From contig NZ_ATHI01000011.1 of NCBI RefSeq assembly GCF_000422245.1, forward strand, positions 1-64,000: a DNA stretch of 64,000 nucleotides. Reading direction: 5' to 3'. Shown one piece after another: positions 33,584-56,363 of this stretch. This stretch comes from Alkalidesulfovibrio alkalitolerans DSM 16529. GTDB taxonomy: Bacteria > Desulfobacterota > Desulfovibrionia > Desulfovibrionales > Desulfovibrionaceae. The notes below the pieces were generated by a model that was given only the letters and a program-made list of their open reading frames with translations, ran no database searches and was not told the DNA's origin. Numbering within the stretch: the first letter of the stretch is position 1; each line of letters starts with the position of its first letter. A program made the position numbers and the translations under genes.

Positions 33584-34021
33584 ATGCGCATCGGCTCGTC
33601 GGGTCCGTCCGACAATCCCTACCTCGCCCACCAGAGCGCCTTCGCGGCGGACATGGTCGCTCGCGCCGCGCCCGAGGCCACCGCGCGCGTGACCACGCGC
33701 GACTTCGGCTTTTCCCTGGGCGGGTTCGGCCTGCGCTACGTCAGCGAAGACATCCACATCGACGCCGAGGCCCTGGTCCGGCAGGAGGAGCAGCGCACGG
33801 CCGCGCGCCTCTCGCGCGTCTTCTCCGACGAAATGGACGTGGCCCAGACCCGCTCCCTGGCCGTGCAGTCCTCGGCCCGGACAGCGGACAGCGCCTCGGC
33901 CCTGGGCGACGAGACGACGTTTTCGCCCCTGGCCCGCCCGGCCGCCCTGGCCGCCTACGCCAGATCGAGCGAAAGTGCGGCCATGGAGCGCTTGCCCGGC
34001 CGCCTGCTGGCCGTGGCCTGA
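33584..34021 (+). CDS. Conserved-looking hypothetical protein with sigma-54-type promoter
   Basis: The 145-residue protein has no membrane segment or signal peptide. Notable stretches are TTRDFGFSLGGFGLRYVSED near residue 38 and an Ala/Ser-rich C-terminal half with an amphipathic helix (RQEEQRTAARLSRVFSDEMD). Codon use matches the high-GC surroundings. I do not recognise the family. The upstream sigma-54-like site suggests regulated, possibly motility-linked expression, which is inference. The low-GC island begins just downstream. Confidence 0.6.
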   Translation: MRIGSSGPSDNPYLAHQSAFAADMVARAAPEATARVTTRDFGFSLGGFGLRYVSEDIHIDAEALVRQEEQRTAARLSRVFSDEMDVAQTRSLAVQSSARTADSASALGDETTFSPLARPAALAAYARSSESAAMERLPGRLLAVA

Positions 34022-34313
34022 CCCCTTCGACGATTCCCGCCCCGCCAAACCGGCCTCGAAAAAGTCTATAAACACGCAAGACGTTTTCTTGGCCCTGTGA
34101 CAATGCGGCCTTCCGCAGACTCCCCGCAAGCCGGGCGCTTCACGCCTCAGTCCGTGGCTTTCCTGCGCGTGGGGATCACTCCTCGGCCTTTTCGTCGCCC
34201 GGATGGACGCGAATCGCGCTTGACCTGTATCGGCCAAGCTGCAAAAAAGGAGCGCGGATGAGAGACGAGGTGCAAACAAAGAGTGAAGCATGCCAGACAA
34301 GAGAAAGCAATAA
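34022..34313. other. Gene-free stretch at the left edge of the low-GC island
   Basis: Composition shifts here from the genomic high GC to clearly lower GC. I see no convincing gene, tRNA, integrase or direct repeat that would mark an insertion boundary. Confidence 0.4.
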
Positions 34314-34691
34314 ATGGCAATGACCATGGAACCACTCATCGACGCGTATTTCGAAACCCTCACCGAGCATTGCGCCATTGCAAAGTATTCGGCGATTTTT
34401 CTTTATTGCATCGAGAGCATCATCACCCTGTGCATCAGGCGAACGAAAAAATCTTCGCGAGATGACCTTTACTACGGATTCCAGAACAATCTCAGTCTCA
34501 CGAGATTTCTGATTCTCCGGCTGTCCATCGGCCTGTTCATCGTCATCGAGCCAATGGCAACAGAAAGAGGAGCCTCGTGTTCCCCGGATTATATTCTGAT
34601 ATTCGTCTTGCTTGGGCTCATCGTCCACGGAGTCAGGACAATGCTTGCAGGAAAGAGAGCGAAAGCCTCTTCAGACGCTCACAATGCATGA
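34314..34691 (+). CDS. Small membrane protein, unknown function (low-GC island)
   Basis: The 125-residue protein has three hydrophobic segments near residues 24-42 (YSAIFLYCIESIITLCI), 64-82 (FLILRLSIGLFIVIEPM) and 92-112 (YILIFVLLGLIVHGVRTML). The layout, with Glu in the second segment and Arg in the third, loosely recalls the small DUF1622 membrane family, but this is a by-eye impression. Codon use is much lower in GC than the neighbours, which suggests recent acquisition. The ribosome site is weak (AGAGAAA). A competing minus-strand frame is less plausible. Confidence 0.5.
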   Translation: MAMTMEPLIDAYFETLTEHCAIAKYSAIFLYCIESIITLCIRRTKKSSRDDLYYGFQNNLSLTRFLILRLSIGLFIVIEPMATERGASCSPDYILIFVLLGLIVHGVRTMLAGKRAKASSDAHNA

Positions 34692-34821
34692 TCATTCAAA
34701 AGGGATAAGAAATATTTTTAAAATTCATCAATTCACTTCTGTACAAACCATAGGTTCATATCAGCACATTTACTCTTAGCATCAGTCTTCATTAACATTC
34801 TAGAATCCGCCTCATCAAGAG

Positions 34822-35559
34822 CTAATAATTCAGATCCAACTCCACGCTCAAGATAGCATGATCTGTAAAAGAACCAGACTCATCTCCAACGATATATCTT
34901 CCTGAAACATCTTGCAAATACATCGCAGAGCAAACACGAAAATGGCTTGATGCAACGAAATGGTCTAGACGACTGGATACCCTCTCACCAGCGCCGTTCT
35001 TCCTACTTCCAATATAGCTCCCTTCAGATAATGGATTTGGATTTTTCGATTGCCAACCATTCGCCAACAAAGCATGAATCTGCTGGCACCCTGCGCTTCG
35101 TTGACGCCCCCAAAAGTCCATGTTGAAATCACCCATCAAGATGGCCGGACCATTTGTATTCAATAATTTGTTCGTGATATGCAGCCAATATTCTCTCTTT
35201 TTAGCTGCGTTTTTAGGAATAGGCATCCTAACGCCAAAAATATCCATATCCAAAGTCCTTACATGAAGGAAATTTGGAGGATCACAAGGATCTCCACACT
35301 GAACTGACATACCACCAATATGCATCTCCCCTTTGGAGGCTATCAATACTTGATTCTGCCCAGGAACATAGTTGGAGCAGTGGAAGCAAAAGCCCATAGC
35401 ATTCATTCTACATGCAAAATTATGACTGTTTCGCCCATGGACATACTCTGTCAGAATTAAAACATCAGGACTGAGGTCCATAACAATATCGAAGAACGAA
35501 CCTGGAACTGGAATAGCGTTTGTCCTATGGTTCATATTCAAAGTAGCAATACGGATCAT
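34822..35559 (-). CDS. Endonuclease/exonuclease/phosphatase-fold protein (low-GC island)
   Basis: The 245-residue protein has the EEP fold signature: N-terminal IRIATLNMNHRTN (metal/phosphate Asn), LILTEY in place of the usual LQE, MGDFNMDFWGR (catalytic Asp and Asn), SRLDHFVAS, and TDHAILSVEL (catalytic Asp-His). All key active-site residues are present, so it is probably active on a nucleic acid or phosphate ester. There is no signal peptide. The ATG at 35559 gives the typical EEP N-terminus; an upstream start at 35640 would add 27 unconvincing residues. Low GC marks it as foreign. A role in defence or phage conflict is possible but unsupported. Confidence 0.82.
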   Translation of the reverse strand: MIRIATLNMNHRTNAIPVPGSFFDIVMDLSPDVLILTEYVHGRNSHNFACRMNAMGFCFHCSNYVPGQNQVLIASKGEMHIGGMSVQCGDPCDPPNFLHVRTLDMDIFGVRMPIPKNAAKKREYWLHITNKLLNTNGPAILMGDFNMDFWGRQRSAGCQQIHALLANGWQSKNPNPLSEGSYIGSRKNGAGERVSSRLDHFVASSHFRVCSAMYLQDVSGRYIVGDESGSFTDHAILSVELDLNY

Positions 35560-35735
35560 GTGCCCTCTTAACCTTCCGCCGCAAACAATGTAATGCATGA
35601 TATCGCACTGTGGTGTACAGAGATAGTATTCACCTGACACTGCCGCCCTTGGGGGGCTGAGTTACGCAGCGTCCTTTGCCGCCTTTTTCTCGGTTCCTTC
35701 TTCGGGATGCCCCAAATGCGGCCCGCCGGGGCGCG

Positions 35736-37052
35736 TTATTTCGCGCGCTTGTCCAGCACCCGGTTGGCCTTGCCCTCGGAGCGTTCAAGGCTCCTGGGCT
35801 CCACCAGCCGAACCTTGAACGCCACGCCGAGGTCCGAGGACAGGCGGCGCTCGATCTTGCGGATGAGATCCTGCTGCGCGCCGATGGAGCCGGACACGAT
35901 GGCCTCCTCCTCGGCCTCCACCAGCACCTGCGCCTGATCCAGGTGCGACTCGTCGCGCTCGATCACGATCTGGTAGTGCGGCTGCGCGCCGCCCTGGCCG
36001 TGGATGACCTCAAGCAGGATCGCCTCCACCTGGCTCGGGAAGACGTTGATGCCGCGCACGGTGAGCATGTCGTCCGTGCGGCCGATGATGCGGTCGATGC
36101 GGCGCAGGGTGCGGCCGCAGGGGCAGGGGCCGTCGATGAACCGGGTCAGGTCGCCGGTGCGGTAGCGGATGACCGGGAAGGCTTCCTTGGTCAGGGTGGT
36201 CAGCACCAGCTCGCCCTTCTCGCCCGGCGGCAGGGGAGCGCCCGTGTCCGGGTCCACGATCTCGGCCAGGAAATGATCCTCATTCAGGTGCAGGCCGCTG
36301 CGCTCCAGACATTCGCCCGCCACGCCCGGCCCCATGACCTCGGAGATGCCGTAGTTGTCCGTGGCCGTCAGCTTCAGGCGCTGCTCGATCTCGCGGCGCA
36401 TGGCCTCGGACCAGGTCTCGGCTCCGAAAAGCCCGAAGCGAAGCGACAAGGCGTTGGGATTGACGCCCGTCTCGTCCATGACGTCGGCCAGGTGCAGGGC
36501 GTAGGAGGGCGTGCAGACCAGCGCCGTGGTGCGGTAGTCCTGCATGACCATGACCTGGCGCTTGGAGCCGCCGGACGAGGCCGGGATGACCGAGGCCCCG
36601 AGCGCCTCGCAGCCGTAGTGGAACCCAAAGCCGCCCGTGAACAGGCCGTAATGGAAGGCCACCTGCACCAAGTCGTCGCGCGTCACGCCGCCGGCCACGA
36701 GCAGCCGCGCCGCGAGCCCGGCCCAGCGGGCGATGTCGTTCTTGGTGTAGCCCACCACCGTGGGCTTGCCCGTGGTGCCCGACGAGGCTTGCAGGCGCAC
36801 AACCTCGCGCAGGGGCACGGCGAAGAGGCCGTAGGGATAGTTCTCGCGCAGATCGGCCTTGGTGGTGAAGGGCAGCTTGGCGAGGTCGTCCAGGGTGCGC
36901 ACGTCGTCGGGCTCGAAACCCATCTCGTCGAAGCGCGTTCTGTAGAGCGGCACGTTGCGCGCCACGCGGTTGAGCGTGGATTGCAGGCGTTCGAGCTGCA
37001 CCCCCTCAAGGGTGTCCCGGTCCATGCGTTCGTATTCCGGATCGTAGTACAT
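35736..37052 (-). CDS. paaK: Phenylacetate-CoA ligase family protein
   Basis: The 438-residue adenylate-forming enzyme joins an aryl acid, ATP and CoA. Visible motifs are [18 protein letters not shown] (P-loop), [18 protein letters not shown], the hinge region [10 protein letters not shown] and [20 protein letters not shown]. In anaerobes such ligases often run toward ATP formation from aryl-CoA made by indolepyruvate ferredoxin oxidoreductase. It lies 65 bases after a branched-chain-type amino acid ABC operon, which supports a role in (aromatic) amino acid or aryl acid use. The exact substrate is inferred. Confidence 0.92.
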
Positions 37053-45495: not shown

Positions 45496-47898
45496 ATGAA
45501 GATCGACCTGCACGTGCACTCCAAACACTCCACCAGGCCCTCGCAATGGGTGCTGCAAAAGATCGGCTGCCCCGAGAGCTTCACCGAACCCATGAAGATC
45601 GTCCGCCTGGCGCGCGAACAGGGCATGGACATGGTGACCATCGCGGACCACAACACCATCAACGGCGCGCTCGAGATCGCCCACCTGCCGGACGCCTTCG
45701 TCAGCGTGGAGGTCACCACCTACTTCCCCGAGGACGGCTGCAAGGTCCACGTCCTGGCGCTGGACATCGATGAGAAGCGCTTCGCCGAGATCCAGAAGAT
45801 CCGCGAGAACATCTTCGACCTAACCGCCTATCTCAGGCGCGAGAACGTGACCCACGTCTGCGCCCACCCGCTCTTCGGCGTCAACGACCGCCTGACCCCG
45901 GACCACGTGGAGCGCCTCCTGCTGCTCTTCAACAACCTGGAGATCAACGGCGCGCGCGACAACGCGCCCAACGTGGCGCTCAGGCTCATCGCGGCCGCGC
46001 TGCGCCCCGAAGACATCGAGCGCATGGCCGAGCGCCAGGGCATCGAGCCATACGGCCCCGCGCCCTGGCAGAAGAGTCTCACCGGCGGATCGGACGATCA
46101 CGGCGCGCTGAACATCGCCCGCATCCACACCGAGGTGCCCGGCGCCCAGACCCTGGCCGACTTCCTGCGCGGCGTGGACCAGGGGCTCTCGCAGGCCCGG
46201 GGCGAGGCGGCCAGGCCCGAGACCATGGCCCACAACCTCTACGCCATCGCCTACCAGTTCTACAAAAACAAGTTCAGCCTGCAGCGCTACGTCAACAAGG
46301 ACATCTTCCTGCGCTTCGTGGACCGCTTCCTGGGCGCGGACGAGGCGCGGACCTCCTCGGTCATCGACCGGCTCCAGACTTACTGGACCACGCGGCGCTA
46401 TCTCTCGACCCGGCCGGGCGACAGCGGCCGGGTGCAGGACGTCTGCCGCCGCGAGGCCGCACGCCTGATCCACGACGACCCCGAGCTTTCCCGCATCGCG
46501 CGCCTCGGCGGCCCATTGCCCGAGAACAAGGGCGGGCTGTGGTACCGCTTCTGCACCGGGGCCACGAACAAGGTCCTGACCCGCTTCGCGGACAAGCTGC
46601 TCTCCAACGTATCCGGCGGCAATCTCTTCGACATCTTCCACACCGTCGGCTCGGCCGGGGCCCTGTATTCCATGCTGGCCCCCTACTTCCTGGCCTACAC
46701 CCTGTTCCACCAGGACCGCCGCTTCAGCCGCGAAGTCCTGGCCACGGTGCTCGGCCGGCCCGCCGCCCGCGAGCCCAAGGTCGCCCACTTCACCGACACC
46801 TTCTATGAGATCAACGGCGTGGCCAAGACCCTGCAGCGCAGCGTGGCCCTGGCCGCGCGCACCGGCAAGGACCTGACCCTCGTGACCTGCACGCCCGCGC
46901 CCGGCGAGGCCCGGCCCGGCGTGCGCAACTTCGCGCCCATCGGCGTCTACGACCTGCCCGAATACCCGCAGCAGAAGATTTTCTACCCGCCCGTGCTGGA
47001 CATGCTCCAGTTCGCCTTCGAAGAGGACTTCACCCACGTCCACTCGGCCACGCCCGGCCCCATCGGCCTGGCCGCGCTGCTCGTATCCCGGCTCTTCAAG
47101 CTGCCCATCCACGGCACCTACCACACCCAGATTCCTCAGTACGCGCACCAGCTCACGGGCGACACCGGCATGGAGGACATGGCCTGGCGCTATACCATCT
47201 GGTATTACAACCAGATGGACCTAGTGTACGCGCCGTCGCGGGCCACGGCCGACGAACTGGCCGAACGCGGCTTGCCGCCCGAAAAGCTCGTGGTCTATCC
47301 GCGCGGCGTGGACACCGAACTCTTCCACCCGGCCAAACGCAACGGCTACCTCAAGCGCCACGGCCTGGAAAAAGGCCTGACCCTGCTCTACGTGGGCCGC
47401 ATCTCCAAGGAAAAGAACCTGCACCTGCTGGCCGAGACCTACTTGGCCTTGCGCCGCGACATGCCGAACCTGAATCTGGTCGTGGTGGGCGACGGCCCCT
47501 ACCGGACCCAGATGCAGGCCCTGCTCGCGGGCAGCGGCGCGGTCTTCACCGGCATCCTCGAAGGCGAGGATCTGGCCGCCTGCTACGCCTCGTCCGATAT
47601 CTTCGTCTTTCCGAGCGCCACCGACACCTTCGGCAACGTGGTGCTCGAAGCCCAGGCCTCGGGCCTGCCGGTCATCGTTACGGACGTGGGCGGGCCGCGC
47701 GAAAACATGCAGCCAGGCGTCACCGGACTGGTCGTGAGCGCGGGCAGTTCCGAAGAACTCACCCGGGCCGTCGAACGCCTCGCCATGGACCCGCAAACCC
47801 GCGCCGCCATGGCCGCCGAGGCCAGGCGCATCATGGAGCCGCGCTCCTTCGAAAAGGCCTTCGACCAAACCTGGAGCCTCTACGCCAAGGTCGGCTGA
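45496..47898 (+). CDS. PHP-domain phosphoesterase / glycosyltransferase family 4 fusion
   Basis: The 800-residue protein is an unusual two-enzyme fusion. Residues 1 to about 240 are a PHP metal-dependent phosphoesterase with IDLHVHSKHS, TIADHNTINGALE, CAHPLFG and GGSDDHGALN, so the metal ligands appear intact. A linker of about 180 residues, with a possible hydrophobic patch near 385-400, follows. Residues from about 425 are a GT-B glycosyltransferase of family 4: VAHFTDTFYEINGVAKTLQR, HVHSATPGPIGLAALL, LLYVGRISKEKNL and ATDTFGNVVLEAQASGLPVI. Such a glycosyltransferase resembles alpha-mannosyltransferases that act on lipid phosphates. It converges on the GAK-type cluster, so a functional link is possible but unproven. 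Confidence 0.9.
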   Translation: MKIDLHVHSKHSTRPSQWVLQKIGCPESFTEPMKIVRLAREQGMDMVTIADHNTINGALEIAHLPDAFVSVEVTTYFPEDGCKVHVLALDIDEKRFAEIQKIRENIFDLTAYLRRENVTHVCAHPLFGVNDRLTPDHVERLLLLFNNLEINGARDNAPNVALRLIAAALRPEDIERMAERQGIEPYGPAPWQKSLTGGSDDHGALNIARIHTEVPGAQTLADFLRGVDQGLSQARGEAARPETMAHNLYAIAYQFYKNKFSLQRYVNKDIFLRFVDRFLGADEARTSSVIDRLQTYWTTRRYLSTRPGDSGRVQDVCRREAARLIHDDPELSRIARLGGPLPENKGGLWYRFCTGATNKVLTRFADKLLSNVSGGNLFDIFHTVGSAGALYSMLAPYFLAYTLFHQDRRFSREVLATVLGRPAAREPKVAHFTDTFYEINGVAKTLQRSVALAARTGKDLTLVTCTPAPGEARPGVRNFAPIGVYDLPEYPQQKIFYPPVLDMLQFAFEEDFTHVHSATPGPIGLAALLVSRLFKLPIHGTYHTQIPQYAHQLTGDTGMEDMAWRYTIWYYNQMDLVYAPSRATADELAERGLPPEKLVVYPRGVDTELFHPAKRNGYLKRHGLEKGLTLLYVGRISKEKNLHLLAETYLALRRDMPNLNLVVVGDGPYRTQMQALLAGSGAVFTGILEGEDLAACYASSDIFVFPSATDTFGNVVLEAQASGLPVIVTDVGGPRENMQPGVTGLVVSAGSSEELTRAVERLAMDPQTRAAMAAEARRIMEPRSFEKAFDQTWSLYAKVG

Positions 47899-48287: not shown

Positions 48288-49484
48288 TCAGACGAGGGAG
48301 AGGAGATTAGCCAACACCAGATCGGGATCGAGGTAGGGTGCCGAACGAGGCGTGACAAGCTGGGTGTCGATGACTTCGACGCCGGAGCGTCTGATCTTGT
48401 GGACGTCGATGGGGCCGCCGTAGTCGCCGTTTTTGCTGTCCACGAGCACGAAGTTGAGCAGCGCATCGCGCGGGGCGATCTTTGAGCACCCCTGGTCCAG
48501 GTAGCGGAACAACTCGGCCACGGCTTTGGCCACGTTCAGCCCCATCATTTCGGGATCGCGGCCGGTGTTGGGGATGAAGACCTTGGGACATTCGTTCTCG
48601 CGGATCGCGTCGGCGACGCCCATGGGCAGAAGGTTGGCAACGAGCGAGGAATAGAAAGAGCCCATGGGATAGCAGATCAGCTCGGCCGAGGCGATGAGTC
48701 GCTTGACCTTGGCCCTGATGGCGGGCCTGACGGATTTGGGGTCGTCCTTGTCGTCGCTGATGAAGAGTTCCTCGATGGGCGAATCGATGGGCGGATTTTC
48801 CTTGCCGGTGATGAGGTGCTGGCCCACGAGCACCCGGCCGTTGGCCAGCCGGGCGGCGAGATGCGCGTCGCGGTTGACCACGGGGCGCACGACGCCGCGC
48901 GCCTCCACGAGCTTGGTGAAGAGGTAGATGACCGGGTCGATGTGGCGCTTCTGGTTGAAGAAGCCGCCGGTGAGGATCAGGTTGCCGATGCTGGCCCCGC
49001 GCAGGTCGAAGCTCGCGGGCATGCGTTCGAGGAAGAACTGCAGATGGTTGCGGATGATCTTGCGCATGGGGTCGGGCACGGCCGCCACGAGCGGATCGCG
49101 GCCCCGGACCATGGCTTCGAGCCGGACGCACAGGGCGGCCTGGGCCTCGTCCTTGGGCAGGCGCGTGGCAAAGAGCGCGAAGATCTCCGGGTTGCCCTTC
49201 AGGCTTCTGTCGGCCAGGGCCATGAGCCGGTTTCGGATGTCGCCCACGGCGAGCATCTTGAAGGCGTCGCGGATGATGGCCGAGGAACCGCCCGAATCGA
49301 AGGGGGTCATGAGGTGGATGGAGTTGTGGGTGTAGTCGATGATGGCGCGCGAAAGACCGCGCAGGGCGGTGCCGCCGCTGAAGAAAAGCACGCGCGGGCC
49401 AAGGTCCGGGGAGCGCCTGAAGCGGGCCAGCTTCATGGCGTTGGGCACGGTTGCGGATTTGCGGATGCTGATCTTCTGGGTCAT
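48288..49484 (-). CDS. CofD/YvcK-like protein of the GAK-type cluster
   Basis: The 398-residue protein resembles the CofD/YvcK fold. FFSGGTALRGL (residues 35-45), PFDSGGSSAIIRD (61-73), AVGDIRNRLMALA (79-91), GASIGNLILTGG and YPMGSFYSSLVANLLPMGVA line up with YvcK landmarks GGTG, DDGGSSGRL, PGDIRN, SVGNLLL and GPGSLYTS. CofD transfers a phospholactyl group and YvcK binds UDP-sugars and controls cell-wall metabolism. The changed residues (SGG for DGG, GTAL for GTGL) mean the ligand may differ. It is the last gene of the cluster, about 100 bases after the coiled-coil pair. GGAG precedes the ATG. Confidence 0.85.
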   Translation of the reverse strand: MTQKISIRKSATVPNAMKLARFRRSPDLGPRVLFFSGGTALRGLSRAIIDYTHNSIHLMTPFDSGGSSAIIRDAFKMLAVGDIRNRLMALADRSLKGNPEIFALFATRLPKDEAQAALCVRLEAMVRGRDPLVAAVPDPMRKIIRNHLQFFLERMPASFDLRGASIGNLILTGGFFNQKRHIDPVIYLFTKLVEARGVVRPVVNRDAHLAARLANGRVLVGQHLITGKENPPIDSPIEELFISDDKDDPKSVRPAIRAKVKRLIASAELICYPMGSFYSSLVANLLPMGVADAIRENECPKVFIPNTGRDPEMMGLNVAKAVAELFRYLDQGCSKIAPRDALLNFVLVDSKNGDYGGPIDVHKIRRSGVEVIDTQLVTPRSAPYLDPDLVLANLLSLV

Positions 49485-49586
49485 CGGGAGGCTCCGGATG
49501 GAGAACGTGCGTCACATGCGCAAAAGAATAGCATACATTCTTCCATGTGACGATACGGCAACGACGCGCGGCACACGCGCGCGCGA

Positions 49587-50084
49587 TCAGGCGGAGGCTT
49601 CCTGGGCCTTCTTGGCCGTATCCTTGTCGATGTAGTTCAAAAGCAGGCAGGTCTGAAGCAAATCGGGCGCCACCTGACCCACGAGGCGAACGGCCTTCTC
49701 GTGCTGCTCAAGACTGATCTTGCCGTTGCTCAGAAGCCAGCGTCCCTGGCGCTCGTTGCGCTGGTTCGATGTCATGGGAGGTTTTCCCGCGGCTTTGGGC
49801 CGGGCCGGAGGCGGGAGAGGGGTGGCAGGCGCGGCGGATTCCTTGGGCATTTGCTGTTCGTGCGCATGCCAGTCGGCCACGGTCAACTGGCTCTCGGCCT
49901 GAATGAGGTCGCTTTCGAGCTTGCGCTTCTCGCTCAACAGTTCGGCGAGTTTGGTTTTGACGTCTTCCTCGGCGGCGACCAGATCGCGCTCTTCCTGTTC
50001 GAACCTGGCGCGCAGGTGTCTATCCACGAGAATTCCGGCCACGGCGATGAAGCTCAGGGCCAGCACGGAAAGAAACACGCCCAT
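49587..50084 (-). CDS. Membrane-anchored coiled-coil protein of the GAK-type cluster
   Basis: The 165-residue protein has an N-terminal membrane segment (residues 2-21, GVFLSVLALSFIAVAGILVD), then a coiled coil (about 25-70, RARFEQEERDLVAAEEDVKT), a Pro-rich spacer (APATPLPPPARPKAAGKPP) and a small C-terminal helical domain (NERQGRWLLSNGKISLEQHE). The architecture suggests a scaffold that holds a domain near the membrane. Its start lies two bases after the stop of the neighbouring 80-residue gene, so the two are coupled. No named family was recognised. Confidence 0.75.
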   Translation of the reverse strand: MGVFLSVLALSFIAVAGILVDRHLRARFEQEERDLVAAEEDVKTKLAELLSEKRKLESDLIQAESQLTVADWHAHEQQMPKESAAPATPLPPPARPKAAGKPPMTSNQRNERQGRWLLSNGKISLEQHEKAVRLVGQVAPDLLQTCLLLNYIDKDTAKKAQEASA

Positions 50085-50086
50085 GG

Positions 50087-50329
50087 CTAGGCGTTCCCGT
50101 CGCGCAGTTCCATGTCGATGAGGCGGCCGTGGATGTCGGCCAGACGCCTGCGAAGATTTTCGTTGGTTTTGCGCAGGCAGCCCATGCGGTGCTCGGCCTG
50201 CATGCGGAAGCGATTCGCTGCCTGACGCTTCAGATCCAGTCGGCGGCGGTTCCTGTCGTAGGCGGAATACAGATACAGGATGACCACTGTGGCCGTGATG
50301 AAGACAAGCATCAACAGAACCGTTTCCAC
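50087..50329 (-). CDS. Small membrane-anchored coiled-coil protein
   Basis: The 80-residue protein starts at a GTG at 50329 with GGAGGGG upstream. Residues 1-20 are a membrane segment (ETVLLMLVFITATVVILYLY) and the rest is a basic coiled coil (RNRRRLDLKRQAANRFRMQA, NENLRRRLADIHGRLIDMEL). It mirrors the next gene's anchor-plus-coil design, so the two products may pair. It is too short for function by homology. Confidence 0.7.
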   Translation of the reverse strand: METVLLMLVFITATVVILYLYSAYDRNRRRLDLKRQAANRFRMQAEHRMGCLRKTNENLRRRLADIHGRLIDMELRDGNA

Positions 50330-50588
50330 GTCGCCCCTCCCCGTCGTCGAATGCGATGCCGCGCCCGGTTGGACCAAGCATGGCCACTGGAGTTCATAAT
50401 ATGCGATACGCCAGTGCGCAAATGGGGGTTTCGCCGTATTTTCGACGAAAAAGCCCCCCGATCGCCAGCCACACTCCGCGCAAGACGCCCGTCCGCCGAC
50501 GATTGGCCGCCGACAAAAAACTGAAGCGTTGCTGCATCCCGCCTTGCCAAGGCGAGCTTGGCCAGACCGAACGAAGCGGCCCGGGCTG
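50330..50588. other. Gap inside the GAK-type cluster with hairpin and possible promoter
   Basis: These 259 bases separate the HprK-like gene from the coiled-coil pair. They hold a hairpin (50424-50459) and a possible -10 box (TATTAT on the minus strand, 50396-50401), so the last three genes may form their own transcription unit. No gene is visible. Confidence 0.45.
50424..50459 (-). promoter_or_regulatory. Bulged hairpin inside the GAK-type cluster
   Basis: On the minus strand GGGGG(G) and CTTTTTCG face CGAAA and CCCCC, a stem of about ten pairs with a small bulge and a nine- to twelve-base loop. It lies between the HprK-like gene and the downstream pair and could act as a partial terminator or processing site. 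Confidence 0.4.
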
Positions 50589-51659
50589 TCAGGGAGCGAG
50601 CAGATTCTTGCAGAAGACCGCTGCGGCCTCGAAATCCACGCCGCCGGAAAGCTCGTACACCGGGCAATCGCCGAGCATGGCCAAGTAGGCACCCTCGGAC
50701 ATGTCCCGCCCGCGCGTCTCCGCGTCCATTTCGAAGAACAGCCCGAGCTCCTTCATGAAAGCGGGCATCAGGTCGCGCCGCGCTGTAAGGTCCACGCGGG
50801 CGATAGACAACGGGGCTTTCTCGCGCCGCCAGTTGAGCAGCACCAGGGCCTTCATGCGACAGCGGATGCGGAAGCGGTCCGGCCCGAAGCACTCATCGAT
50901 GAAGGCGTCGTACTTGTGCTCCAGATCCCACAGCTCCTCGGCTGGCATGGCCAGGAACCGCTCGCGCTCGTCGGCCGGGATGACCGGCCCCAAGGAGTCG
51001 TTGTGCAGCACGGTGCCGGGGTTCACGCGCGGCATCTTGGGCAGGCCATGCATGACGAGCCCTTCGGTGTCGCGCTCGACCATCATCCGGTCGTTGGAGA
51101 CGAAGTCCGTGCCGTGGCGCATGATGTGCAGCGCCAGGGTGGACTTGCCCATGCCCGCGAACCCTGCCAGCGTCAGGCCCTGCTCGCCCACGGCCACGCC
51201 CGAGGCGTGGAACAGCAGGCAACCGCGCTTGATGAGCCGCTCGATGTAGCGGTTGTTGATGAAGTTCACGATCTGATTGTCGTTGGCGATGCACGGCCCC
51301 ACGATCAGGTTCAGGCCGCCGCCGAAGAGGCAGACCAGGCCGGTCAGGCGCTTGCGCACCACGCGGCCGTCGGGCAGGTCGAGGAACTCCTCCTTGATCT
51401 TGCGCTTGCCCGGCTCCGGGGTCTTGGGGGCCAGCGGCAGGCCTATATCCACGGCCTCGCGCTCGATGGCCGCGACCTCGATGTCGGCGATGCCGCCCTC
51501 GCCCAGAAAATCACGGTAGTAGTCCCTGAGCTTGGCCACGAGCGCGGCCGAGTTGGAGCGCACGTCGATGCGCGTGTCGCCGAAGCGAAGGCCCAGTTGC
51601 TGCGTGAGCGGGGCCTCGCGCAGGAATTTTTCGGCCAGGGCCGCGACGCGAGCGCTCAC
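50589..51659 (-). CDS. HprK-related kinase of the GAK-type cluster
   Basis: The 356-residue protein resembles HPr kinase/phosphorylase in its C-terminal half. The P-loop is AGFAGMGKSTLALHIM (residues 165-180), followed by GTDFVSNDRMMVE, which matches the HprK element with its catalytic Asp, and preceded by RGCLLFHASGVAV. There is no clear HprK N-terminal domain. It is much longer than the bare kinase domain and lacks a nearby HPr or PTS gene, so its substrate is not known. It fits the 'HprK-related kinase B' type I recall from the GAK neighbourhood. Its start overlaps the ATP-grasp stop by four bases. Confidence 0.85.
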   Translation of the reverse strand: MSARVAALAEKFLREAPLTQQLGLRFGDTRIDVRSNSAALVAKLRDYYRDFLGEGGIADIEVAAIEREAVDIGLPLAPKTPEPGKRKIKEEFLDLPDGRVVRKRLTGLVCLFGGGLNLIVGPCIANDNQIVNFINNRYIERLIKRGCLLFHASGVAVGEQGLTLAGFAGMGKSTLALHIMRHGTDFVSNDRMMVERDTEGLVMHGLPKMPRVNPGTVLHNDSLGPVIPADERERFLAMPAEELWDLEHKYDAFIDECFGPDRFRIRCRMKALVLLNWRREKAPLSIARVDLTARRDLMPAFMKELGLFFEMDAETRGRDMSEGAYLAMLGDCPVYELSGGVDFEAAAVFCKNLLAP

Positions 51660-52531
51660 GAGAGCCTCCCGAGCACGTGATCGGCGTACATGGCAGCCGC
51701 GTCCAGACCGCAGGCGTCGAGCAGCCCCCGGAAGCCGCCAAAGGCCGAGACCTCGTAGATCTGCGGCCCATCGGGGGTCTGGACCACGTCAACGCAGGTG
51801 AAGGACATGTCGAAGAGCGCCTGGGCCTTGTGGGCCAAATCGATGACCTCCTGCGAGGGCGTCACGGCCACGTACTTGCCGCCGCTTTGCGTGGTGGTGT
51901 TCCAAGACGCGCCCGAGCCCTTGCGCGCATAGGTGGTCACGTACTCCCCACCGATGAAGGTCACGCCCAGGTCCAGGCCCGGATGCTCGACCATCTTCTG
52001 GATGTACATGACGGGGTTGCCCTCGGCCTTGAAGTCCTCGATCTGCTCTTGCATCTCGGGGCCGGGCTCGATGACGGTCATGCCGCGCGCCTTGGAGGAG
52101 AAGAGCGGCTTGAAGACCGCGCGGCCGTAGTCCTCGACTGCGGCCATGGCTTCCTCCACATCCTCGGTGACGGTCGTGGGCGGCATGGGAATGCCGCCGG
52201 AGCGAAGTCCCACGGTGCACGAAAGGCGGTCGATGAGCCTGATGATGCTTCTGGCCCTGGAGAATACCGGCAGGCCGCGCTCCTCCAGAAAGCGCAGGAT
52301 TTCCATGCGGTCCAGGGCGCTAGGCGTATAGGAGGGTGCGATCTTCTTGACGACCAGGGCGTCGAGCGCGCTCAGGTCGTGCTCGCCGTAAAAGACCTTG
52401 CCGCTCGAAAGATCCAGGCGCACCTTGGACATGTCCACGAGCAGCCGAAAGCCTGTGCGCTGTTCCACGGCCGCGACCATGCGCTCCGTGGACCAGCCGC
52501 CCGGAATGCCGACGACACCTATGCGTTTCAT
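51656..52531 (-). CDS. ATP-grasp enzyme of the GAK-type cluster
   Basis: The 291-residue ATP-grasp protein is RimK-like in layout: an N-terminal Rossmann-like domain (KRIGVVGIPGGWSTERMVAA), then the ATP-grasp core with AVFKPLFSSKARGMTVIEPG (ATP-binding Lys) and PVMYIQKMVEHPGLDLGVTF. The C-terminal metal-binding stretch is CVDVVQTPDGPQIYEVSAFG. RimK-type enzymes ligate an amino acid or peptide to a carboxylate; the substrate here is unknown. It overlaps the HprK-like gene by four bases and lies 33 bases after the PhoU-fusion gene. Confidence 0.88.
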   Translation of the reverse strand: MKRIGVVGIPGGWSTERMVAAVEQRTGFRLLVDMSKVRLDLSSGKVFYGEHDLSALDALVVKKIAPSYTPSALDRMEILRFLEERGLPVFSRARSIIRLIDRLSCTVGLRSGGIPMPPTTVTEDVEEAMAAVEDYGRAVFKPLFSSKARGMTVIEPGPEMQEQIEDFKAEGNPVMYIQKMVEHPGLDLGVTFIGGEYVTTYARKGSGASWNTTTQSGGKYVAVTPSQEVIDLAHKAQALFDMSFTCVDVVQTPDGPQIYEVSAFGGFRGLLDACGLDAAAMYADHVLGRLS

Positions 52532-52564
52532 CCATCCGATCCTTGGTTTTCGCCGGAATCCGGC

Positions 52565-54196
52565 TCAGGTCGAGGAGAGGACGTTCAGCGGCATGCGGAA
52601 CTCCTCGTAGGGCTTGCGAAAGCCCACTATCTTTTCCAACAGGTACACACCGCGCAGGTACATGTCCTTGGCGAAGCGGCGGTTCAATTCGAAACGCGAC
52701 GAGGTCAGGAACGAGCGCACCAGCCCCAGGCACAGCCGCGCGTCGAAGGTGACGTCGTCGTGCCTGCGCGCGAATTCGCGGGCAAAGGCGTACATCTCCG
52801 AAATCACCATGCGGATGCGGTCGCGGGCCTGGGGGTCGAAGATGGGCAGGCGGAAGTTGGAGACCATGAACACCGAGACGTCTTGTAGATAGTCTGTCTG
52901 TGCCGAGCGGTGCAGGTCGATGAAGTGGATGCGCTGGTTGGCGTGGTCGTAGACGATGTTGTTGATGTTAAAGTCGCCGTGGATGAAGACCGAGAAGGGG
53001 GAGTTGAGCGTCTTGCCGATCTGCCTAGCCTCACCGAGCAGCCCCTTGAGGGGCGGGATGGTGACCTTGCCCAGACAGCGCACGGGCGTGTCGAATTCGG
53101 GATAGAGGCGATAGACGTCGGGCAGCCGCTTTTGGCACTGCCCGATGTAGTCGGCGTTGACAGGTTCGGGCTTGAGCGTGAATTCCCAGGCCTCAGCCAC
53201 GGTCTGCTCCAGAAGCAGCATGGCGTCGGTCAGGTACTGCATCTCGCCGGACAGGACGATGTCCTGGATGGTGCAGCCCGAGAGGAATTCGAGCAGCAGC
53301 GAGGCCGAGGCCCCGTCCTCGCGCAGGGCCACCACCTTGGGCGGCAGTCCGGGCATGATGGCGTCCCACTTCTCGATGTTGGCCTTCTCCTGGAGCAGTT
53401 TCCTGGCTTCACCTTCCTTGAAAATGACCCCCTGGGACTCGGCCCGGCCGCCGCCCTCGCGCACGCGGCCGATGCGGCAGCCCGAGCGTGTGCCCCAGAT
53501 GGACTGGAACTCCACGTCGGAGATGGGCACTTCCTTGCCAGCGGCCGAGAGCGTGTCGCGCAGGGCGTTGTACTGGTGGATCTTGAACTTCTCGCCCAGG
53601 ATGTAAAAGATGATGGCCTCGCCCACGTTCAGCAGGGCGTCGCCGATGCGCTCCAGGTAGCGGAAGATGAACAGAGTGGTGATGAGGTTCCCGGTCTCCA
53701 CGCCCGCGCGCAGCTCGTTCAAGATGCGGTCGAACTGTTTCTTGTAGAGCTTGTCCAGGGTGGATTCGGAGATGCAGATGCGAAACGCCAGTGACATGTC
53801 CTGCCGAAACAAGGCATCGTAGACCTTCTCCAGGGAGTTGAACAACTCGTCGAAAAAGGGCTTGTAGTCGTAGCGGCGCAGGAACTCCGGGTCGGAAAGA
53901 TAGCGCGTCTGGCGGACGATGTTCACGGCGTGGTCCGCGAGCCGCTCCAGGTTGTTTGCAATGATGTGGGCCGCGCGCAGCCGGTCCACTCCGCGCTTGG
54001 TGAGCGTCTCCTTGCCGTGCAGGCGCGAGAAGCAGATGTTCTCGATGACGCTTTTCATGTTGTCGATGTAGTTGTCGCGGTTCTCGATCTTCTCGATGAT
54101 TTCGTCCGAGGGCTTTTCGAGAGCCTTGAGCGTGCCCTCCATCTGCTTGGTGACCTCAAGCAGCATGAAGCGGATGTTCTGTTCGAGATCCTGCAT
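52565..54196 (-). CDS. PhoU-domain / aminoglycoside-phosphotransferase-like kinase fusion
   Basis: The 543-residue protein joins two modules. Residues 1 to about 215 form PhoU-like three-helix bundles with the metal-binding repeats NNLERLADHAVNI (81-93) and YLERIGDALLNVGE (180-193). Residues about 225-543 are a kinase fold of the APH/choline-kinase type: GVIFKEGEARKLLQ as the ATP-lysine region, FIHGDFNINNIVYD (catalytic Asp 408) and IHFIDLHRS (metal Asp 427). PhoU proteins sense or buffer phosphate-linked signals. The fusion suggests phosphorylation of a small molecule or protein under phosphate control. It sits in the middle of the cluster. Confidence 0.88.
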   Translation of the reverse strand: MQDLEQNIRFMLLEVTKQMEGTLKALEKPSDEIIEKIENRDNYIDNMKSVIENICFSRLHGKETLTKRGVDRLRAAHIIANNLERLADHAVNIVRQTRYLSDPEFLRRYDYKPFFDELFNSLEKVYDALFRQDMSLAFRICISESTLDKLYKKQFDRILNELRAGVETGNLITTLFIFRYLERIGDALLNVGEAIIFYILGEKFKIHQYNALRDTLSAAGKEVPISDVEFQSIWGTRSGCRIGRVREGGGRAESQGVIFKEGEARKLLQEKANIEKWDAIMPGLPPKVVALREDGASASLLLEFLSGCTIQDIVLSGEMQYLTDAMLLLEQTVAEAWEFTLKPEPVNADYIGQCQKRLPDVYRLYPEFDTPVRCLGKVTIPPLKGLLGEARQIGKTLNSPFSVFIHGDFNINNIVYDHANQRIHFIDLHRSAQTDYLQDVSVFMVSNFRLPIFDPQARDRIRMVISEMYAFAREFARRHDDVTFDARLCLGLVRSFLTSSRFELNRRFAKDMYLRGVYLLEKIVGFRKPYEEFRMPLNVLSST

Positions 54197-54201
54197 GGCC
54201 G

Positions 54202-54501
54202 CTACTCGTTTCCGCCGCCCGGCTCGCCGCTCGCGCGGATGATGAGCGGAGGCTGTCCGCCTGCCGTGGACTCGGCTTGTTCCTTCCAGCCCAGGGTGAA
54301 CTTGAGCTTGCGGCGCACGCCCTTGAGCTTGGCTTCCACGGAGAATCCGAGCAGACCGGCGGGCTTCATGACCAGCGTCTCGCCTTCGCGCGCCAAGGTC
54401 AACTCGCCCTTGCGGAATCCCTCGGCCAGGGCCTCCAGGTAGCGGACGATGGTTTCCATGTCCTGCACGGACTCGTACTTGAAATATTTCGCTTCGGGCA
54501 T
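54202..54501 (-). CDS. Amphi-Trp-type small protein
   Basis: The 99-residue protein contains a domain I recall as amphi-Trp: ESVQDMETIVRYLEALAEGF (amphipathic helix), GELTLAREGETLVMKPAGLL, then a basic VRRKLKFTLGWKE strand that carries the tryptophan. The domain is widespread and unexplained. A GGCGGA site lies before the ATG at 54501. It ends six bases before the PhoU-fusion start. The N-terminal half of the XXXCH protein in this cluster looks related. Confidence 0.82.
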   Translation of the reverse strand: MPEAKYFKYESVQDMETIVRYLEALAEGFRKGELTLAREGETLVMKPAGLLGFSVEAKLKGVRRKLKFTLGWKEQAESTAGGQPPLIIRASGEPGGGNE

Positions 54502-54524
54502 CGGGGTTCCGCCTTTTCCCGCGC

Positions 54525-55715
54525 TCATCCGTCGAGCCGGGCCTTGTATTCGTCGATCATCTTGGCGCGCGAGGCTCCGCACAGGATAAGGCTCTTGCGC
54601 ACTGAAAGGTCGTCCCACACGGGTTGCAGCCCCACCTCGCGCGCGGCCTTGTCCGCATCCTGAAGCGCGGGCTCCTTGACCTTCTCGCTCATGTGGCAGT
54701 CGTCGCCCATGAAAACGAGCATCTGCGGGCTGTTGCGGCAGCGATTCTCGTTTTGACGGTTCACGGCCTGGATGAGGAACTCCGTGTATTCACGCGACTG
54801 GGGATTCCAGACCTCGATGCCGTCCACGTCGTAGTCGGCCAGGAGGATGGGCCAGAACTGCTCCGGATGGGGAATGACGACGCCCGCGCCCAAGGAGCGC
54901 GCCTCCTCGATGATCTCCGAGGCGCGATAGAAGTAGGTCAAGGAGAAACCCTGCTTGACCAGCTCCTTGAGGGCCTTGAGGTAGACCTGGGCCCTGTTCA
55001 CGGCGAGATCGCCGTAAGCGGGCCGGTACTCGTCGAGAAAGTTGCGCAGGAGCTTGTTCTTGATGGTCTCTCGCGGGGTTTCGCCCCACGTGTCCTCGAT
55101 GAGCCGCTTGAGCTTGGCCGCGATGATGCCTGAGAACTCCACGATCTCGGCGTCGGCGTTGGAAAGCGCGGCCGCCTGCTGGCGACGATGTTCCATGCCC
55201 GGAAGCGTGGCCGCGTCCAGGAACTCGAAAAGCTGCCCGGAGCGGTATTCGAAGGTGTGGGCGAGCATGGACTTGAGTGTCTCGGCCTGGTGCTCTCCCT
55301 CCACCTTGTCGCGCCGAAAATGCAACAGAAGCTGCACTTTGCGGTTGAAGCCGGAGGAGTAGCAGTCCACCTCCACGCCCGCGTAGTCGTCCCAAAAGAG
55401 CAACTCGTTATGCTGCGTGGGAATGATCAGTTCCTTGCCGCTGTTGGGGTACAAGGCCCGGATCCGCGCACGGATGAGATCCATGGGCACGAATTCGGGG
55501 TGCCAGTGCACGGCCATGGTCTCGGCCTGCATGGGGAAGGTCTTGCCCGGTTCGGCGATGCGGGCGGCCTGCTCCGGCGTGAGGGTGGTGTCAATGACGC
55601 GCGCGTAAGCGCGGGCGTCATCCTCCGTGACCTCGCGCGGCACGGCGTCGAGGTCGAGGAGGGCGCAGCGGCGATTCGCGCCCTGCTTGAGCGAAACGAC
55701 TTCCATTGCGTTCAT
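54525..55715 (-). CDS. PHP-like phosphoesterase protein of the GAK-type cluster
   Basis: The 396-residue protein has scattered metal-ligand-like motifs in PHP order: AVHWHPEFVP near residue 70, IPTQHNELLFWDDY near 98-111, GVVIPHPEQFW about two-thirds along, and VFMGDDCHMSEK near the C-terminus. This resembles a PHP (polymerase and histidinol phosphatase) metal site, but several consensus residues differ, so I call it PHP-like. The ATG at 55715 is preceded by GGTG; a GTG at 55724 adds three residues. It lies between the XXXCH and amphi-Trp genes. The substrate is unknown. Confidence 0.72.
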   Translation of the reverse strand: MNAMEVVSLKQGANRRCALLDLDAVPREVTEDDARAYARVIDTTLTPEQAARIAEPGKTFPMQAETMAVHWHPEFVPMDLIRARIRALYPNSGKELIIPTQHNELLFWDDYAGVEVDCYSSGFNRKVQLLLHFRRDKVEGEHQAETLKSMLAHTFEYRSGQLFEFLDAATLPGMEHRRQQAAALSNADAEIVEFSGIIAAKLKRLIEDTWGETPRETIKNKLLRNFLDEYRPAYGDLAVNRAQVYLKALKELVKQGFSLTYFYRASEIIEEARSLGAGVVIPHPEQFWPILLADYDVDGIEVWNPQSREYTEFLIQAVNRQNENRCRNSPQMLVFMGDDCHMSEKVKEPALQDADKAAREVGLQPVWDDLSVRKSLILCGASRAKMIDEYKARLDG

Positions 55716-55772
55716 GGCTATCACCGTATTGTTACATCCCGGTTGCGAGGGGCCGAAAGGTCCGGCCGGGCG

Positions 55773-56363
55773 CTATTTGTAGCGCCTGTGACATTCCTTT
55801 TTCAGGCGCTCGACAAGGGCGGCGGCCTGCCTGGCGCGCTCCAGATCGCCTTGCGCCACTGCCTCCTGCAACTCCTCCAGGGCCTTGCGGTTCTCCTCGT
55901 AGTGCTCGTCGCCCTTGCCCGGATAGGTCAGCATGGCCCTGAAGTCCCCGCCCAGAAGGTCCATGAGTATCTTTTCGGGCAAAACTCCCAGGGCCAGCCC
56001 CTCGCGCACGGTCTTCCAGGTCTTCTCCAAACGCTTCTTGAGCCCTTTGTACTTGGGCTTGCCGCCCGCGCCGGGCTCCGCGCCCATCTGCTCGGCCAAG
56101 GCCTCGGCCGCGCCACAGGCGCAGACGTTCTCCTCGCAGACGCAAACCGGTCCCACGGCCTCGCGCTTGACGCTCAGGGAGACGAACACGGATTCGCCCA
56201 CTCCCTTGGCCGCGAGCTTGATGGAGGAAAAGTTCCCGAATTCAAGGGCAACGCCCGAAACATCCATACTCCCGGCCTCGAGCCCGTCCGCGAGCCTGCG
56301 GAAGAAGGCGGCCGTCTCGTCGCGCCTCAAGGCCATCTCGATCTTGGATTTCTTGCCACCCAT
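55773..56363 (-). CDS. XXXCH-motif protein of the GAK-type cluster
   Basis: The 196-residue first gene of the cluster ends in a helix reading LVERLKKECHRRYK, the Cys-His motif after which the XXXCH domain is named. Residues 10-70 resemble the amphi-Trp domain (RRDETAAFFRRLADGLEAGS, EFGNFSSIKLAAKG). The middle part is Cys-rich (VCVCEENVCACG), which suggests metal binding or disulfides. I chose the ATG at 56363 with GGAGGT at ideal spacing; an in-frame GTG three codons upstream overlaps that ribosome site. No catalytic domain is visible. Confidence 0.8.
   Translation of the reverse strand: MGGKKSKIEMALRRDETAAFFRRLADGLEAGSMDVSGVALEFGNFSSIKLAAKGVGESVFVSLSVKREAVGPVCVCEENVCACGAAEALAEQMGAEPGAGGKPKYKGLKKRLEKTWKTVREGLALGVLPEKILMDLLGGDFRAMLTYPGKGDEHYEENRKALEELQEAVAQGDLERARQAAALVERLKKECHRRYK

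Follow-up and report, generated by a model that had tools for sequence, protein, structure and literature searches.

The stretch of DNA analysed here comprises 64,000 nucleotides of contig NZ_ATHI01000011.1 of Alkalidesulfovibrio alkalitolerans DSM 16529; it is referred to below as the window, and all coordinates are counted along it. Positions 48288-56363 are filled by nine open reading frames (ORFs) on the minus strand, each found where an earlier note on this DNA had placed it, and together they form a GAK cluster. All five GAK families of NCBIfam (TIGR04354-TIGR04358) are represented above their curated cut-offs in this one operon, so that the GAK identity proposed in that note holds. From the composition and order of such clusters, their Pho boxes, their phosphate-related neighbourhood and the conservation of catalytic residues, we consider it likely that GAK is a PhoB-controlled phosphate-starvation module. 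The nine genes are given below in order of transcription, followed by two associated features.

55773..56363, minus strand: XXXCH protein with a partial amphi-Trp domain, a predicted four-helix domain and a C-terminal Cys-His (TIGR04358, 79.4 bits, cut-off 40)
54525..55724, minus strand: putative PHP-like metallophosphoesterase (predicted-fold match to PHP phosphoesterases; invariant motifs)
54202..54501, minus strand: amphi-Trp protein 1 (TIGR04354, 70.4 bits, cut-off 31)
52565..54196, minus strand: PhoU domain fused to an APH-type kinase, 543 residues, here PhoU-APH (PF01895, 90 bits, cut-off 23.5; PF01636, 27.8 bits, cut-off 23.2)
51656..52531, minus strand: GAK ATP-grasp ligase, RimK/LysX/MptN-like (TIGR04356, 457.5 bits, cut-off 300)
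50589..51659, minus strand: HprK-related kinase B, here HprK_B (TIGR04355, 535.2 bits, cut-off 200)
50087..50329, minus strand: small membrane-anchored coiled-coil protein 1, genus-specific (hydrophobic N-terminus; coiled coil judged by eye)
49587..50090, minus strand: membrane-anchored coiled-coil protein 2, genus-specific (hydrophobic N-terminus; coiled coil judged by eye)
48288..49484, minus strand: GAK CofD/YvcK-like protein (TIGR04357, 550.1 bits, cut-off 340)
55719..55747, minus strand: candidate Pho box CGCAAC-n5-TGTAAC (one mismatch) ahead of the PHP-like gene; a third repeat is weaker
45496..47898, plus strand: GT4 glycosyltransferase (PF13439/PF00534) with a PHP-like N-terminus judged by eye, here PHP-glycosyltransferase; associated with the cluster, not core

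The ORF of the PHP-like gene opens with GTG, and its likely start is the ATG at 55715. The PHP-glycosyltransferase gene is convergent with the cluster. The PHP-like protein and PhoU-APH are regular, recurring members of GAK clusters that are matched by no GAK-named model.

Related clusters were studied in fetched loci (L-numbers; G-numbers denote genomes, and g3 and g7 are genera). Forty loci of the window's order, picked for genus diversity from 105 places with HprK_B over the cut-off, make 41 with the window, and some of them hold HprK_B or CofD without the remaining cluster. A search with a pattern from the PhoU-APH alignment gave at least 427 candidate relatives, of which 80 were kept as named loci; the neighbour counts for these are underestimates, because the loci are of unequal length. 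Eighteen phylum loci and 20 solo-CofD loci, the latter fetched from CofD places among the matches listed, complete the set. Because the loci are not phylogenetically independent, p values are only indicative.

The gene set recurs in a fixed order, and does so beyond chance. The order is the canonical one in all 132 loci in which PhoU-APH is joined, within 7 kb and on its strand, by at least one further core gene; the same strand was here a condition of counting, five core genes were considered, and some species were entered twice. All five are present in 74 of these loci. PhoU-APH itself was found in 133 fetched GAK loci, three of which also have a core gene on the opposite strand (HprK_B in L049, a further CofD in L031 and L057). 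The earlier note had named two findings that would speak against it, matches to unrelated known families and a lack of recurrence in other genomes; neither was seen. Some genomes carry two GAK clusters (L040, L054, L069), the second HprK_B being more divergent at about 320-400 bits. In L108, PhoU-APH, the PHP-like protein and CofD appear broken into several ORFs on one contig, through decay or sequencing error.

The system extends well beyond the family of the window. Among 199 genomes of its order, HprK_rel_B is over the cut-off in 88 and CofD_rel_GAK in 169; the latter is thus near-universal in the order and occurs in many g3 genomes without other GAK genes. In a phylum sample of 395 genomes, 25 have a GAK ATP-grasp match (24 over the cut-off), 19 of them outside the window's family, and these 19 minus one below the cut-off gave the 18 phylum loci. 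The kept PhoU-APH relatives include, among the matches listed, contigs labelled Solidesulfovibrio, Fundidesulfovibrio, Desulfonatronospira, Desulfarculus and Desulfatirhabdium, and more distant labels such as Nitrospinota, Zixiibacteriota, Atribacteria, FCPU426, Phycisphaerae and Enhygromyxa. Nitratidesulfovibrio and Solidesulfovibrio are thus labelled as carriers of the cluster by L167 and L130.

Across these loci the core consists of the PHP-like protein, amphi-Trp, PhoU-APH, ATP-grasp, HprK_B and the CofD-like protein, and CofD is often followed by a second amphi-Trp or XXXCH protein. The counts of XXXCH from our own profile were left unused because that profile also matches amphi-Trp N-termini. 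HprK_B lies apart from CofD in genomes G001, G004, G017 and G032 among the matches listed. The separate copies of G032 (L049) and G017 (L050) are near pstSCA and that of G001 (L046) directly follows a PhoH-like gene near an operon that by eye is of the phosphonate-type ABC kind, while that of G004 (L047) is without a phosphate-type neighbour. In twelve loci PhoU-APH, ATP-grasp and CofD are present without HprK_B on the fetched stretch.

The upstream regions of GAK clusters are rich in candidate Pho boxes. The PhoB protein of D. vulgaris Hildenborough, DVU1083, binds (c/t)GT(n)AC units arranged as direct repeats (PMC3333781). Two YGTNAC-type repeats were sought around the start of the first GAK gene, over the 300 bases before it and the first 60 bases of the gene, in a first set made of L031-L118 and the window and in a second made of the named loci; the two sets share species. 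With a gap of 5 bases, which gives an 11-bp period as in the Escherichia coli Pho box, the box is exact in 7/47 and within one mismatch in 18/47 regions of the first set, and in 14/62 and 25/62 of the second (12/54 and 21/54 after removal of loci sharing 40-mers with the first set). The longest ORFs of 40 control regions gave 1/512 and 17/512. Since these control upstreams come from longest ORFs and not from known operon starts, other gaps in the same sequences are the cleaner control: in the 101 pooled regions the box with gap 5 is exact in 19 and within one mismatch in 39, in comparison with 4/606 exact and 38/606 within one mismatch for gaps of 2, 3, 4, 6, 7 and 8. Triple 11-bp repeats occur in L032, L058, L105, L135 and L195. 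Of the regions upstream of six pstS genes, those in L105, L137, L141 and L171 hold an exact box and that in L050 one with one mismatch, and that in L180 has none within one mismatch. Pho boxes thus stand upstream of a large minority of clusters in several lineages. Judged from these upstream sequences, membership of GAK operons as a group in the Pho regulon is well supported.

Genes of phosphate metabolism adjoin GAK clusters more often than control regions. Neighbours within about 10 kb were scanned for PstS, PstC, PstA, PhoU, PhoH2, PiT and DUF47, and for the PHP-glycosyltransferase; among the flank clusters, whose clustering was dominated by antisense ORFs, only those recognisable as real genes were followed. 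At least one phosphate gene is near 12/41 order, 6/18 phylum and 15/80 named loci, and the PHP-glycosyltransferase is near 11/41, 1/18 and 8/80. One or the other is found in 18/41 order (p 5.5e-6), 6/18 phylum (p 0.0026) and 21/80 named loci (p 0.0007). The 40 control regions, hand-picked at arbitrary coordinates and partly on GAK-bearing contigs, gave 1/40 with at least one phosphate gene and 0/40 with the PHP-glycosyltransferase; the sole positive one (L236) lies about 37 kb from the GAK cluster of its genome. At solo-CofD loci the PHP-glycosyltransferase is near in 0/20, and the enrichment of phosphate genes is not significant (3/20 vs 1/40, p 0.1). The identity of 20 neighbour genes, seeds included, was checked, and all ten pst/phoU genes exceed a curated NCBIfam cut-off and all ten phoH/PiT/DUF47/phoU genes a Pfam cut-off, in each case for the family expected.

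Several arrangements are close. In L105 and L171, pstS-pstC-pstA lie directly upstream of GAK and are co-directional with it; in L118, pstC-pstA-pstB-phoU and a PhoH-like gene adjoin it. A mini-operon phoU-HprK_B-CofD occurs in L035 (8759-11803), L053 and L070, all of genus g7, and the genome of L035 also holds a second, larger GAK cluster (L034). PiT/DUF47 adjoins CofD in L076, L078 and L085 and a full cluster in L061; in the g3 genomes inspected (L078, L085) it is the solo CofD that adjoins DUF47-PiT. The positions of PHP-glycosyltransferase, PiT and PhoU relative to GAK were compared by eye among the matches listed. On this basis, 23 of the 103 genomes and 7 of the 25 genera with a PHP-glycosyltransferase have it no more than 10 kb from GAK genes, against a chance expectation of about 0.13 genera; in g7, one of the seven, what lies near is either the mini-operon phoU-HprK_B-CofD or an additional copy of HprK_B.

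A number of observations weigh against GAK as a phosphate-starvation module. No listed phosphate gene is within about 10 kb in 29/41 order, 12/18 phylum and 65/80 named loci, and 62/101 upstream regions are without a box within one mismatch. The published spacer between PhoB repeats is 4 bases (PMC3333781), and with this gap the signal is weak (3/101 exact, p 0.015; 6/101 with one mismatch, p 0.09); the strong signal is that of the 5-base gap. The box of the window has one mismatch and sits after the XXXCH gene, between it and the PHP-like gene (55719-55747), and the PHP-glycosyltransferase of the window has no upstream box within one mismatch. Amphi-Trp 1 of the window ends in Glu, not in Ser or Thr, and Table 1 of the D. 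alaskensis fitness study (PMC5193443) names no recognisable GAK gene. Upstream of XXXCH, the first gene of the window's cluster, there are only two-mismatch matches. A one-mismatch box of the window's type is present at the same place in all three examined species of its genus (window, L038, L119), and the other 70 loci that our own XXXCH profile places in the class with XXXCH upstream of PHP all lack a box between these two genes. In the A. alkalitolerans genome, membership in the Pho regulon would rest on one conserved one-mismatch box. Its PiT gene has a box about 115 bases upstream that is exact on the opposite strand and has one mismatch on the gene strand. Among six tested PHP-glycosyltransferase upstreams, those of L105 and L195 have an exact box and that of L152 one with one mismatch; those of L038 and L166, like the window's, have none. 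Neither the solo HprK_B genes of L046, L047, L049 and L053 nor the phoU genes of L035 and L118 have an upstream box within one mismatch.

In the alignments made, catalytic residues are conserved in PhoU-APH, the PHP-like protein and HprK_B. PhoU-APH shares with PhoU both ExxxD motifs (E84/D88 and E182/D186), which have a metal role; an alignment of 16 sequences of several lineages shows no variation in them or in the kinase motif HGDxNxxN...D. The GAK version is fused to an APH kinase and is under the cut-off for full-length PhoU (83.7 of 130.25 bits). Like HPr kinase/phosphorylase, HprK_B has the P-loop, a preceding His and a following Asp-Arg, all kept in 20 sequences; it is far under the cut-off of TIGR00679 (23.7 of 240 bits), and the first Asp of the Asp-Asp pair of HprK is Asn in all 20. 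With Asn-Asp instead of Asp-Asp, HprK_B is a relative of HPr kinase and not a canonical one. The nearest solved structures of the ATP-grasp enzyme are RimK/LysX-type ligases. The CofD-like protein belongs by sequence to the fold family of YvcK/UPF0052 and CofD, with GGT, GGSS and GDIRN-type motifs and UPF0052/YvcK-type proteins as nearest solved relatives, but is below the YvcK cut-off (TIGR01826, 102.8 of 196 bits) and has a family of its own, TIGR04357. It is the sole YvcK-family match in the A. alkalitolerans genome, at a single locus.

No Pfam or NCBIfam model matches the PHP-like protein above chance, and neither its profile nor that of amphi-Trp retrieved anything credible among solved structures (best E 0.39 and 0.037). 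Its predicted model (mean predicted local distance difference test score, pLDDT, 87.5) matches 3o0f with Z 15.4 and a root-mean-square deviation of 3.6 over 245 residues, 3e0f with a Foldseek E of 4.2e-6, and 2yb1, which has Mn, AMP and phosphate bound, with Z 14.2; rows beyond PHP-type proteins have Z below 6. The HxHPE, TQHN, PHPE and GDDxH residues are invariant in 13 sequences. By the model and these motifs the protein has both the PHP fold and the His, Asp and Glu metal ligands.

At its start the XXXCH protein carries part of an amphi-Trp domain (24.5 bits; the cut-off is 31), and no obvious hydrophobic stretch is present at its N-terminus. Its C-terminal domain (55773-56078, residues about 96-196) is predicted to be a four-helix fold like that of cytochrome c' (profile best E 6e-4); the model matches cytochrome c' with Z about 10.5 over 95-100 residues and a best Foldseek E of 0.019, values that are middling for helical bundles. 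A CXXCH heme-attachment motif is absent and only CH is invariant in 19 sequences; the protein, if the model holds, could bind heme without the usual attachment. Among 110 unique sequences of amphi-Trp 1, which are related and thus not independent, 42 end in Ser or Thr, in comparison with a background of 10.5%. HPr-kinase homologs of lasso peptide clusters phosphorylate a C-terminal Ser (PMC8498205). Because the window protein ends in Glu, the Ser/Thr end is a hint only.

The earlier note was right about the GAK neighbourhood and its recurrence, and it missed the Pho boxes, the pst, phoU, phoH and PiT neighbours and the PHP-glycosyltransferase. Its idea of a pathway at the membrane does not hold as a general feature, because the two membrane coiled-coil genes are found only in the window's genus. 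Their N-termini are strongly hydrophobic (mean Kyte-Doolittle values over 19 residues of 2.45 and 2.61), and a scan of 159 loci with profiles built from two sequences detected their relatives in no others than the window, L038 and L119. The pair is a genus-specific addition of the window and stands outside the general GAK system. Elsewhere in the window, the G+C content falls to 0.504 at 34001-36000, compared with about 0.66 in the surroundings; the only recognised gene there is a 272-residue ORF on the minus strand (34822-35640), by eye of the endonuclease/phosphatase type.

The chemistry of the module we infer as follows. Low phosphate would activate PhoR/PhoB, and the GAK operon would be switched on; the two kinases, the PHP phosphoesterase, the ATP-grasp ligase and the YvcK-like protein would then act on the small amphi-Trp proteins while phosphate is short. 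PhoU-APH may couple a PhoU-type signal domain, responding to phosphate or metal, to a small-molecule or protein kinase. The best-known members of the HprK fold run backwards with inorganic phosphate, and HprK_B could for this reason read the phosphate level, with a small amphi-Trp protein as the substrate that it phosphorylates. That protein, or else a small carrier, would also receive an amino acid from the ATP-grasp enzyme, and removal of phosphate would fall to the PHP enzyme. A UDP-sugar may be bound by the YvcK-like protein and channelled towards envelope lipids free of phosphorus, which the glycosyltransferase next door would make. This last step leans on D. alaskensis, which forms glycolipids only under phosphate limitation and requires the Agt homolog Dde_3613 for them (PMC5193443). 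The PHP-glycosyltransferase of the window is likened to this Agt-type MGDG/GADG synthase by broad class, has an extra PHP-like N-terminus and may by inference be an Agt-like lipid glycosyltransferase. Taken at its fullest, GAK would be an unrecognised, cross-phylum, post-translational phosphate sensor, in which a PhoU-kinase and an HprK-like kinase/phosphorylase, both PhoB-induced, read how much phosphate the cell contains and charge amphi-Trp carriers with phosphate and an amino acid; the charged carriers would then guide UDP-sugars, by way of the YvcK-like protein, into membrane lipids that lack phosphorus. We regard this as speculative and rather unlikely to be correct as a whole.

Other explanations account for part of the same evidence. 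CofD and CofF/MptN build F420 and methanopterin, and GAK might be a small-molecule pathway to a phosphorylated, amino-acid-ligated cofactor, with phosphate regulation serving only to save cost. With the model of the tetrahydromethanopterin:glutamate ligase MptN the ATP-grasp enzyme reaches 146 bits, where the cut-off is 350; the CofD-like protein reaches 118.9 bits with Pfam CofD, for which the cut-off is 30. Yet the nearest solved relatives of the CofD-like protein are of the UPF0052/YvcK type, with the GDIRN-type motif in common, many genomes with a member of its family have no HprK_B (169 vs 88 of 199), and the PhoU domain and Pho boxes are left unexplained; we find such a cofactor doubtful. 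It is also unlikely, in our judgement, that the kinases and the amphi-Trp/XXXCH proteins coat or regulate polyphosphate granules, or otherwise control phosphate storage, when phosphate changes. The PhoU domain, the PiT/Pst neighbours and the Pho boxes would fit this equally, and phosphate-limited D. alaskensis has no polyphosphate granules (PMC5193443); induction by starvation, however, would then fall when granules are absent.

The wide distribution of the CofD-like protein suggests a further alternative, a YvcK-type regulator of envelope or morphology that is tied to phosphate only in some lineages and is tuned by the kinases. Its presence over the cut-off in 169 of 199 order genomes, its standing as the only YvcK-family member of the window's genome, the twelve loci with ATP-grasp, CofD and PhoU-APH but no detected HprK_B, and the non-significant phosphate enrichment of solo-CofD loci all agree with such a role. 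Clusters outside the order, however, have Pho boxes or phosphate genes as well (L105, L106, L118, L171), and we hold this alternative to be improbable. A multi-enzyme cluster of patchy distribution might also suggest anti-phage defence; conserved order and Pho boxes point elsewhere, none of the nine proteins matches PADLOC-DB at E 0.001, and a defence function is very improbable indeed.

In the literature searched there is no description of the GAK system, amphi-Trp, the HprK-related kinase or the five TIGR families, as the earlier note had supposed of GAK function; GAK is a system named by curated families but undescribed there. The XXXCH domain came up in one listed paper, on a Salmonella phage. 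Nor did that literature yield a published link between GAK and phosphate: PMC4001038, considered as one, concerns other genes in its available part. Within the same scope, the assignment to phosphate starvation and the associations with PhoU-APH, the PHP-like protein and the PHP-glycosyltransferase are new. Placing GAK in phosphate starvation, the reading we favour, would give it a growth condition, a regulator and phenotypes to test, and would add to phosphate signalling a kinase fused to PhoU and an enzyme of the HprK type. The hosts are anaerobes, at least one of which remodels its whole membrane when phosphate is exhausted, and GAK is probably an overlooked part of the bacterial response to that exhaustion.

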